DNA from: Nitrospirota bacterium
Lineage (GTDB): Bacteria > Nitrospirota > Thermodesulfovibrionia > Thermodesulfovibrionales > UBA6898
Direction of reading: 5' to 3'
DNA: 64,000 nucleotides
Assembly (NCBI GenBank): GCA_016214855.1
Contig: JACRMT010000004.1
Coordinates: forward strand, 620,001-684,000
Shown here: piece after piece, positions 53,444-58,606 of the stretch
Position numbering within the stretch: the first letter of the stretch is position 1
Layout of the letters: each line of letters opens with the position of its first letter
Translations under genes and position numbers: made by a program
Notes under the pieces: model-generated
Database searches by the model: none
Seen by the model: only the letters and a program-made list of their open reading frames with translations
What the model was told of the DNA's origin: nothing

Positions 53444-53689
53444 ATGATGAAAAAAGTGACGCTCTATACATTAAGCACCTGCCCTGTCTGCAGGAAGATC
53501 AAGAGTTTTCTTGACGACAACGGGATCGCCTATGCGCTGGTCGAGGTTGATTCGCTCGATGGCTCAGAGCAGTGGGCGGCAACAAAAGAACTGGCAAAAC
53601 ACAACCCGCAGGTTTCATATCCGACCGTTGTGGTCGAGGACGTGATCGTGGGTTACGACATAGATGCACTGAGGGCAAAACTGCTGTAG
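53444..53689 (+). CDS. Glutaredoxin-family thiol protein
   Basis: The protein has 81 residues, a thioredoxin fold with active site STCPVCRKIK (Cys13, Cys16), the cis-Pro motif SYPTVVVED and a helical end. Glutaredoxin-like proteins shuttle electrons to thiol targets. It is one base from the FtrB gene, which suggests that FtrB reduces it. Confidence 0.9.
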   Translation: MMKKVTLYTLSTCPVCRKIKSFLDDNGIAYALVEVDSLDGSEQWAATKELAKHNPQVSYPTVVVEDVIVGYDIDALRAKLL

Positions 53690-53690
53690 C

Positions 53691-54020
53691 ATGGCCGTCA
53701 CTCCTGATCGTCTTTACGAAGTCCTTTCAAGATATGCCGTCTCTCTCGGCCTTCAGCTCAACAGTGACAGAGAGTTCGTTCTCGATATACTTGCCGGTCT
53801 CCTGAAGAACGAAGAGCGGTATGGGTACCGCTCCTGCCCCTGCAGGCTGGCGTCCGGATACAGGGAGCGTGATGAGGATATTATCTGTCCCTGCAGATAC
53901 CGGGATGATGATATCAGGGATTTTGGGAGCTGTTACTGTTCCCTGTATGTCTCTGAGGCATGGAACAACAATACGGTTCCGCACAGCGTTGTGCCTGAAC
54001 GGAGAAGACAGGGCAAATAA
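53691..54020 (+). CDS. Ferredoxin:thioredoxin reductase catalytic subunit (FtrB)
   Basis: The protein has 109 residues. The three conserved pairs SCPCRL (Cys49, Cys51), IICPCRY (Cys66, Cys68) and SCYCSLYVS (Cys81, Cys83) give the [4Fe-4S] cluster and the redox disulfide. It normally passes electrons from ferredoxin to thioredoxin. No variable subunit is adjacent, the usual situation outside plants and cyanobacteria. The glutaredoxin just upstream is the likely partner. Confidence 0.93.
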   Translation: MAVTPDRLYEVLSRYAVSLGLQLNSDREFVLDILAGLLKNEERYGYRSCPCRLASGYRERDEDIICPCRYRDDDIRDFGSCYCSLYVSEAWNNNTVPHSVVPERRRQGK

Positions 54021-54407: not shown

Positions 54408-54920
54408 TCACCGGAAAAAGCCGAGCCGGTCACAGAACTTTTCAAGAAGTTTAGCATCTCGGAAACTCCTCTCATCCTCAACCGGAACGAGCGGGAACCG
54501 TGTCATAAATGCCGTACAGAAAATACCTGTGCCACTACTGTTCTGCTGACCTGAAGCGGTGAAAACTTCAACACCCTTTACACCGCAGCTTGGAGATCCA
54601 CTCTTAAACACAAACCCGCGAAGGTCAGCCGTCTGCAGTTCCCTGAGCCATTTTTCAGACCATAGCTGCAAGCGATCTGTGAGGTCAACTCCTGTTTTGA
54701 TCGTTACTAGACGCGGTGACGCCGGATCTCCGATAAGCCGCATCGCCTCCCTCGGAACGGGCAGGCCTGCTTCCACCTCAGGGCATACGGTCACCCATTC
54801 GATATGCTCTCCAAGGATATCCTTCAGGTAATTATTCAGTTTATGACCGCCATCATAGCGGACTCTCTCACCAAGAAGACAGGCACTGATGCCGACCCTT
54901 ATCTTATCCTCCGATTGCAA
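54408..54920 (-). CDS. DUF523 family protein
   Basis: The protein has 170 residues with the DUF523 pattern: GISACLLGERVRYDGGHK at the start, TVCPEVEAGLPVPREAMRL, and FVFKSGSPSCGVKGVEVF with conserved cysteines. Homologues fused to DUF1722 occur elsewhere; here the domain is alone. The conserved Cys/His residues suggest metal or cluster binding. Function not established. Confidence 0.88.
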   Translation of the reverse strand: MQSEDKIRVGISACLLGERVRYDGGHKLNNYLKDILGEHIEWVTVCPEVEAGLPVPREAMRLIGDPASPRLVTIKTGVDLTDRLQLWSEKWLRELQTADLRGFVFKSGSPSCGVKGVEVFTASGQQNSSGTGIFCTAFMTRFPLVPVEDERSFRDAKLLEKFCDRLGFFR

Positions 54921-55896: not shown

Positions 55897-55997
55897 TTCA
55901 GGACTCCTCTATTAGGATACAGCAGACCCTATTCTACCTTATCCTGGACGTCAAATCCTCAACAGCTTTTTTGAAACCCCCTATGGTAAAATTCAGT

Positions 55998-56426
55998 ATG
56001 CTTGAAGAGATAGGCACCGTAATAAGCGTTGAAGGCCTGTACGCCAAAGTCTCTGTTCCGAAGAAAAGCTCCTGACAGGGCTGCTCTTCAGGAACCTGCG
56101 TGACAGGTGATCAGTCCATGGAGATCGAGGCCCTCAATAAAGCAGGAGCTGTTGCCGGCCAGAAGGTCAAGGTCATGGTCCATACCTATGCGTACATGAA
56201 GGGCTCCATGGTCATCTACGGCTTTCCTGCCCTGATGCTGGTGATCGGAGCGGTCATGGGCAAGGAGTTGATGCCCGCTTTCTTTCCTTCCCTGAATGCA
56301 GACTCGCTTTCTGCAATTTTCGGGTTCAGTTTTCTGATCGCATCATTTATACTGGTAAAGATCTGGGCCGGGAGTCAGACAAAAAAAACCTCATCGACAC
56401 CGGTAGTTGAAGAGATATTGCCATAG
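55998..56426 (+). CDS. rseC: RseC/MucC-family protein with in-frame TGA (candidate selenoprotein)
   Basis: If the TGA at 56,073-56,075 is read as an amino acid, the gene encodes 142 residues with the RseC layout: MLEEIGTVISVEGLYAKVSV, a cysteine cluster, EALNKAGAVAGQKVKVMV, and two membrane helices (about 71-90 and 95-115). RseC proteins carry a conserved C-x2-C-x4/5-C cluster; here it reads U26-x2-C29-x4-C34, the TGA replacing the first Cys. Frame and similarity continue on both sides. A 5-bp stem with a CGTGA loop lies 18 bases after the TGA, at the distance of bacterial SECIS elements. In other organisms RseC works with electron-transfer complexes such as SoxR-reducing systems. A nonsense mutation is the alternative. 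Confidence 0.7.
56094..56108 (+). other. SECIS-like hairpin downstream of the in-frame TGA
   Basis: ACCTG and CAGGT form a perfect 5-bp stem around the loop CGTGA, which contains the GU pair favoured by SelB. The stem starts 18 bases after the TGA. A second possible pairing (CAGG with CCTG, closer to the TGA) exists, so the exact fold is uncertain. Confidence 0.45.
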
Positions 56427-56509: not shown

Positions 56510-58606
56510 ATGGCTAACTTTGAAGTTGGAAGCATCAGGAATGTCGCTCTCATCGCCCATAGCGGGGCAGGCAAGACTTCTCTTGCCGAGGCAATGCTCT
56601 TCAGTGCAGGAATGACCGACAGGCTCGGCAATGTGCAGGACGGCACAACCGTTACTGACTTTGAACCGGAAGAGATAGACCGGAAGATAACCATCACATC
56701 ATCTCTTGCCTTCTGCAACTGGAACAACTACCGGATAAATATTGTCGACACTCCCGGCTTTATCAATTTCATCGAGGACACGAAAGGCTGCCTAAGGGTG
56801 GTGGACGGAGCGGTCATTCTCGTGAGCGCCATCTCAGGCGTTAAGGCAGAGACCGAAAGGGTCTGGAAATATGCCTGCGAATATGAGATACCAAGGATCG
56901 TCTTTATCAACAAGATGGACAAGGACACGGCCAATTTCGAGCGCGCCCTTGATGAAGTGCAGAAGTCCTTTGAGACAGAACCGATCCCGCTTCAGATACC
57001 GATCGGCGCCGGCGATACGTTCACCGGCATCATCGACCTCGTAAAGATGAAGGCCTTCATCCTGAGCAACGGCAAGATCGGTGAGCAGGATATTCCGGCA
57101 GACCGCGCGGATGAGGCTGAAAAATACCGGAAGAAACTGGTCGAAAAGATCGCCGAGTCTGACGATGCCCTGCTCGAAAAGTATCTTGAAGGCACAGAAC
57201 CGACCCAGGCCGAAATCCTGAGCGGCATCAAAGAGGGTTCTCTTTCGAGAAAGTACATACCCGTCTCATGCGGCGCTGCCACGAAGAATATAGGGACCTC
57301 AAACCTTCTCGATACGATCGCGCTCTGCCTGCCTTCACCGGTCGAGATGGCCACTATTGCGCCGATCAGCGGAAAGAACCCTAAGGATGGCGGACTGATC
57401 TTCAGAAAACCTTCGGAAGCAGAGCCGATGTCTGCCTTTATTTTCAAGACCATCGCAGACCCCTATGCAGGAAAGCTGTCTCTCTTCAGGGTCTATTCAG
57501 GCACTCTTAAGGCGGATTCGGCAGTCTATAATGCTACGGCCGATACTAAGGAGAGGATTGGGCAGGTATTCTACCTTCAGGGCAAGAAACATGTGCCTGT
57601 CCAGACCCTGGGCGCAGGTGAGATAGCGGTCGTGGCAAAGCTGAAGGAAACGAACACCGGCGACACCCTCTGCGATGAGGCAAAGCCTATAATTTTCGAC
57701 AAGGTGAAATTCGCCAACCCGATCATCTCCTATGCCATAGCACCCAAGTCCAAGGGCGATGAGGAGAAGGTGAGCGTTGCACTCCACAAGGTCCTCGAAG
57801 AAGACCCGACACTCAGGTTCAGCAGGGACGAGGAATCCAAAGAGATGCTCATCTCCGGCATGGGACAGGTGCATATCCAGGTTATGCTCGACCGCTTAAA
57901 GAGAAGGTTCGGCGTGGAGATAGAAATGAAGACGCCGAAGATCCCGTACCGCGAGACGATCCACGGCTCTGCCAAGGTCCAGGGCAAATACAAGAAACAG
58001 TCCGGCGGAAAAGGCCAGTACGGCGACTGCCACATCACAGTAGAGCCGCTTCCGCGCGGCGCCGGCTTTGAGTTTGTCGACAAGATCGTCGGCGGCTCCA
58101 TCCCGCGTCAGTACATCCCTGCTGTTGAAAAAGGTATCATCGAGGCAATGCATGACGGCGTTATAGCCGGTTATCAGACCGTTGACCTGCGCGTCACGCT
58201 TACTGACGGTTCATACCATACGGTTGACTCCTCTGAAATGGCGTTCAAGATCGCAGGCTCCATGGCGATCAAGAAGGCCGTACAGGAAGCAAAGCCCGCA
58301 TTGCTTGAGCCGCTTATGAAGACCGAAATTACCATACCAGAAGAATCGCTCGGAGCGATCATCGGCGATCTGAACTCAAAGAGAGGGAAAGTGCAGGGTG
58401 TTGAGCCGCAGGCAGGCGGCAATCAAAAGATCAATGCGCTGGTGCCGATGGCTGAAATGCTCACGTATGCAAACCAGCTCCACGGTCTGACCTCGGGAAG
58501 GGGCCTGTACTCCATGGAGTTCTCGCATTATGAGGAAGTGCCGTCTCATCTGGCCCAAAAGATCATTGCAGAGAGGCAGGCACATAGACAGGAGAAGCAT
58601 GTCTGA
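56510..58606 (+). CDS. Elongation factor G-like GTPase (EF-G paralogue)
   Basis: The protein has 698 residues with all EF-G domains. The G1 loop is AHSGAGKTSLAEAM instead of the canonical AHIDAGKTT of translocating EF-G; G3 is DTPGF and G4 NKMD. Domains III-V are present (SKRGKVQGVEPQAGG and the end). This G1 variant marks the EF-G-like group (often called EF-G2) whose members can act in recycling or under stress; a normal fusA is expected elsewhere. GAGGGGG precedes the ATG. It overlaps the next gene by eight bases. Confidence 0.9.
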   Translation: MANFEVGSIRNVALIAHSGAGKTSLAEAMLFSAGMTDRLGNVQDGTTVTDFEPEEIDRKITITSSLAFCNWNNYRINIVDTPGFINFIEDTKGCLRVVDGAVILVSAISGVKAETERVWKYACEYEIPRIVFINKMDKDTANFERALDEVQKSFETEPIPLQIPIGAGDTFTGIIDLVKMKAFILSNGKIGEQDIPADRADEAEKYRKKLVEKIAESDDALLEKYLEGTEPTQAEILSGIKEGSLSRKYIPVSCGAATKNIGTSNLLDTIALCLPSPVEMATIAPISGKNPKDGGLIFRKPSEAEPMSAFIFKTIADPYAGKLSLFRVYSGTLKADSAVYNATADTKERIGQVFYLQGKKHVPVQTLGAGEIAVVAKLKETNTGDTLCDEAKPIIFDKVKFANPIISYAIAPKSKGDEEKVSVALHKVLEEDPTLRFSRDEESKEMLISGMGQVHIQVMLDRLKRRFGVEIEMKTPKIPYRETIHGSAKVQGKYKKQSGGKGQYGDCHITVEPLPRGAGFEFVDKIVGGSIPRQYIPAVEKGIIEAMHDGVIAGYQTVDLRVTLTDGSYHTVDSSEMAFKIAGSMAIKKAVQEAKPALLEPLMKTEITIPEESLGAIIGDLNSKRGKVQGVEPQAGGNQKINALVPMAEMLTYANQLHGLTSGRGLYSMEFSHYEEVPSHLAQKIIAERQAHRQEKHV

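Follow-up and report, generated by a model that had tools for sequence, protein, structure and literature searches.

The rseC gene and its surroundings

The window, a stretch of 64,000 nucleotides from a 3.3 Mb Nitrospirota assembly (G000), contains an rseC gene at positions 55998..56426 of the forward strand. Its frame runs from an ATG at 55998 to a TAG that ends at 56426 and is included in these coordinates, and it is interrupted by one internal stop, a TGA at 56073-56075 (codon 26). Read through, the frame yields a product of 142 residues that matches the Pfam family RseC_MucC (PF04246) over residues 8-137 with 93.3 bits, the curated cut-off being 24.4 bits. This result bears out the earlier note, which had described a single TGA in an otherwise open RseC-like frame. 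As is expected of a bacterial selenoprotein gene, homologous RseC sequence carries on past the TGA. The TGA stands where homologues use a cysteine codon, TGC or TGT, and is followed by the codons of Cys29 (56082..56084) and Cys34 (56097..56099), the latter inside the hairpin described below. Both cysteines are invariant in an alignment of 22 homologues, as is the column of codon 26 when TGA is counted as Cys. The first conserved cysteine is thus the one replaced, as the earlier note had it, and U26, C29 and C34 would form a U-x2-C-x4-C motif; with Sec counted as Cys, the product has all three cysteines of the RseC/MucC family. Standard annotation is likely to cut the gene short or to overlook it entirely.

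An AlphaFold2 model of the product (mean pLDDT of 71.6) predicts that the N-terminal domain is followed by two membrane helices, the arrangement demanded of the RseC/MucC family, at residues 64-90 (56187..56267) and 101-127 (56298..56378). The Cys/Sec loop, residues 24-38, falls below a pLDDT of 50, and its ligand geometry is unusable. Comparison of the product with solved structures gave no match, and the only RseC model in NCBIfam, which is of the E. coli type, scored it far below the cut-off.

Comparison of homologous loci identified a conserved sequence, TATGGTAAAAT, at 55982..55992 of the forward strand. In 14 of 30 homologous loci it lies 16-17 nt ahead of the start codon of rseC, including loci in which its own ATG is out of frame, and it looks like a promoter -10 region that would give rise to a leaderless or very short-leader mRNA. 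An elongation factor G-like gene (EF-G; 56510..58606, forward strand) follows rseC, and this linkage is kept across the genus. Inspection by eye also revealed a DUF523-like protein with an SPSCG sequence, encoded on the minus strand at 54408-54920; the DUF523 family is among the listed selenoproteins (SxSUG) and is present here in its Cys form. At 53444-54020, a glutaredoxin-like gene precedes a gene that, again by eye, resembles the catalytic chain of ferredoxin-thioredoxin reductase, both with Cys, and the two constitute a thiol-redox pair near rseC.

Selenocysteine machinery and distribution of the TGA

The G000 assembly encodes a 627-aa SelB adjoining a 472-aa SelA (522 bits), a tRNA-Sec (selC) with a UCA anticodon (70.9 bits), and a SelD whose CAGU site (...GCAGUAAKF) itself contains a TGA. 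Thus, selA, selB, selC and selD, for which the earlier note had proposed a genome search, are all present, including the selB and selC on which its proposal depended. Three PF00384 (molybdopterin) genes each contain a single in-frame TGA, and in one of them the formate dehydrogenase U-H-x-P site was read directly. Because SelA, SelB, tRNA-Sec, SelD and TGA-bearing molybdopterin genes occur together, the organism very probably uses Sec in other proteins. In G000, selC lies off the selAB contig; in the related genome G003, a 16-kb section of a single contig (C29:34645-50473, L075) holds selC, selB and selA.

A search of 150 genomes, that of the window being one of them, found RseC in 123. Of the matches listed, those that combine a full-length RseC with an in-frame TGA come only from G000, G003 (Nitrospirae NC_groundwater_1767) and G006 (Thermodesulfovibrionales DeMMO2_13), which belong to one genus. 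The TGA occupies the identical codon in all three, and the G003 and G006 proteins are 86% and 70% identical to that of G000, respectively. In the other five species of the genus this codon is TGC or TGT, and Cys likewise fills the column in the loci read from the family and order. The alignment of homologues suggested earlier therefore returned either the same TGA (G003 and G006) or Cys (the other homologues read), and the frames of the relatives are open rather than disrupted beyond this point. A motif scan for TGA-bearing RseC in the contigs of 84,980 species, a collection from which the window's own genome was perhaps left out, returned RseC only in the G003 and G006 records, and in 396 genomes of the phylum the motif was confined to the same three. 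A third match of the whole-collection scan (L067, Alphaproteobacteria) is not RseC and was discarded as an unrelated chance match. Since the scan motif was tuned to this RseC subfamily, Sec forms of distant RseC may occur outside the genus.

All of the genomes are draft assemblies, two of the three with a TGA-bearing gene being fragmented, and TGA is one base away from the Cys codons, so that an error of sequencing or assembly, with TGC or TGT as the true codon, might be suspected. However, the identical TGA recurs in three separate assemblies, accompanied by a hairpin that most Cys species are without. With the TGA present in the assemblies of two further species, there is very little likelihood of a misread TGC, and error has next to no chance of being the correct explanation.

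The downstream hairpin, selection and history

A 5-bp hairpin with a 5-nt loop (stem ACCUG, loop CGUGA, stem CAGGU) is located at 56094..56108 of the forward strand, with an energy of -4.6 kcal/mol. It matches the 5-bp hairpin with a CGTGA loop described in the earlier note (ACCTG-CGTGA-CAGGT in the DNA), and it begins 18 nt from the TGA, the loop being 23 nt away. The latter distance was judged by the rule of bSECISearch. The stem lengthens to 6 bp in G003 and G006. The bacterial SECIS is characterized by a small apical loop with a guanosine (PMC1088965); the loop CGUGA has a G among its first bases. In the SECIS of the G000 FdhA gene, UGGCC-GGUCU-GGCCA, a 5-bp stem likewise carries a 5-nt loop with GU at positions 2-3, although its loop lies at 18 nt rather than 23 nt and the two proteins are unrelated. 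SelD of the same genome has the loop GGUUC on a longer stem, in contrast to CGUGA in rseC. The SelD SECIS loop of G002, another species of the genus, is CGUGC (L058) as opposed to GGUUC in its congeners, and resembles the rseC loop.

Fold energy was dropped as proof of a SECIS, as the z score is only -2.2 for the 15-nt hairpin and near 0 when longer contexts are folded; a comparable hairpin lies downstream of 1.9% of all the TGA triplets that the window contains. It is the comparison across genomes, not fold energy, that excludes chance. The three TGA-bearing rseC genes differ at one third of their sites and yet are identical over a 21-nt block that spans codons 33-39 (56094..56114, forward strand). 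This is the longest identical run among them, and the permutation probability of an equally long run anywhere is P = 0.03. Synonymous identity amounts to 7/7 codons within the block versus 33/79 elsewhere (Fisher P = 0.0035). In the Cys genes of G001, G004, G005 and G007, codons 33-39 vary at both the nucleotide and the amino acid level and do not form this hairpin. Other hairpins can arise by chance in Cys genes. In G002, which has Cys encoded by TGT, the hairpin is kept with two changes.

Genomics alone cannot name the residue inserted at the UGA, and the codon could be read as another amino acid (e.g. Trp) or passed by programmed readthrough that does not involve selenocysteine. Against these readings stand the Sec machinery, the further TGA-bearing genes of selenoprotein families, the SECIS-like hairpin after the TGA and the Cys found at the TGA column in the other homologues read, and they are regarded as highly improbable. 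The reading of the UGA at 56073 as selenocysteine is strongly supported by these genomic comparisons.

In pairs of the TGA-bearing genes, dN/dS ranges from 0.05 to 0.20 over codons 1-25 and from 0.09 to 0.21 over codons 27-141, with the caveat that the stretch ahead of the TGA is short and that some of the synonymous distances approach saturation. With dN/dS of 0.05-0.21 on the two sides of the TGA, both parts are therefore maintained as protein. TGA is normally a stop, and a recent nonsense mutation would leave rseC a pseudogene in this species, the lost gene possibly being a non-essential accessory. This is hardly credible given the same TGA in two further species at the divergence stated above, the purifying selection on both sides and the conserved hairpin. 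The earlier note had also disfavored nonsense, on the grounds that the downstream part is intact; that judgment stands, but the pairing of TGA with Cys and the conserved hairpin constitute the stronger evidence. Alternatively, the 108-aa open reading frame that starts at an internal GTG (56100) could specify a short protein, produced beside a small upstream peptide that ends at the TGA. Such a product, however, would be devoid of the conserved Cys motif and of the first strands of the domain, and purifying selection acts on the 25 codons ahead of the TGA as well, making this arrangement very improbable as well.

The EF-G tree groups G006 with (G000, G003, G002), apart from G001, G004, G005 and G007, at a support of 91/91, which lies below the usual 95. 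The simplest reading of this clade, on which the case for one origin depends, is a single Cys-to-Sec change, which would have taken place in the ancestor of a subclade within one Thermodesulfovibrionales genus, and a single reversal in G002. The Cys rseC of G002, with its decayed copy of the hairpin, is probably a reversion from Sec. Two independent Cys-to-Sec gains may provide an alternative history. G002 possesses tRNA-Sec, a TGA-bearing SelD and TGA-bearing molybdopterin genes, and looks still Sec-using. selA and selB were not found in its assembly, from which the surrounding region is almost wholly absent; because the neighbors of selAB are missing too, this is attributed to an assembly gap and no loss is claimed. 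Loss of selA/selB as the cause of the Cys form was rejected, as the other Sec genes are retained. Cys forms of rseC occur in Sec-using species too.

Possible role and significance of a candidate selenocysteine-containing RseC

E. coli RseC consists of a cytoplasmic N-terminal domain and two membrane helices; its conserved C26, C29 and C35, at least two of which are needed for function, belong to a domain that can hold an oxygen-sensitive [4Fe-4S] cluster, and the protein interacts with two members of the Rsx/Rnf complex, RsxB and RsxD (PMC11729352). In C. ljungdahlii, autotrophy and rnf expression need rseC (PMC9124969). The G000 product matches PF04246, the family of E. coli RseC and Rhodobacter RnfF, at 93 bits and shares with it the three-Cys N-terminal motif and the two predicted helices. 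It differs in having a TGA codon for the first conserved Cys, in the spacing of the motif (C-x2-C-x4-C versus C-x2-C-x5-C), and in that its gene is followed by the EF-G gene, whereas RseC/MucC genes are linked to rpoE or rnf instead. Thioredoxin and the 'Fe-S cluster domain-containing protein' NF005503, listed UxxC selenoproteins, also have the UxxC motif with Cys homologues, but their folds differ.

In the favored explanation, rseC would encode a selenoprotein form of RseC in which SelB and tRNA-Sec decode the UGA of codon 26 as Sec, with the hairpin at 56094-56108 acting as the SECIS. Sec26 would be situated at the equivalent of E. coli C26, in the cytoplasmic three-Cys motif before the two membrane helices. 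Because C26 of E. coli belongs to a cluster-forming motif, Sec26 is probably either a ligand of an oxygen-sensitive Fe-S cluster or the redox-active half of a UxxC pair. It may thereby support the Rnf electron-transfer complex, of which G000 encodes at least an RnfD/E-type subunit on a contig other than that of rseC. The more specific proposal, that the [4Fe-4S] cluster of RseC has Sec26 as a natural selenolate ligand and that one group of species has thus tuned this Rnf accessory by exchange of sulfur for selenium, is tentative and somewhat less probable than an even chance; the close Cys relatives and the natural revertant would serve as its controls. The explanation as a whole, comprising a Sec-containing RseC decoded by means of a SECIS, one origin followed by a reversion, and a role as ligand or UxxC residue, is considered very likely to be correct.

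PF04246 is not among the 119 prokaryotic selenoprotein families of a 2026 inventory (PMC13188914), consistent with the earlier statement that no Sec form of RseC had been established. Literature searches combining RseC with selenoprotein or selenocysteine returned no relevant paper, although a 2026 survey of selenoproteins in groundwater MAGs (Deng et al.) may list RseC. Judged from sequence, the mode of decoding would be standard, the novelty residing in the host protein family and the Sec site, and RseC appears to be a new selenoprotein family found in a few related Nitrospirota. The earlier proposal of a new selenoprotein type in membrane redox chemistry is accordingly upheld in respect of the type, and a redox function fits E. 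coli RseC; the role assigned to Sec is drawn from that comparison.

Selenoproteins would gain a family of membrane proteins with a Cys motif for which Fe-S cluster formation has recently been demonstrated, and Sec would occupy one of the residues that form the cluster. Within one genus, rseC exists in a Sec, a Cys and an apparently reverted form, all beside the same EF-G gene, and these natural pairs would allow the effect of a Cys-to-Sec change on an Fe-S or redox protein to be tested.
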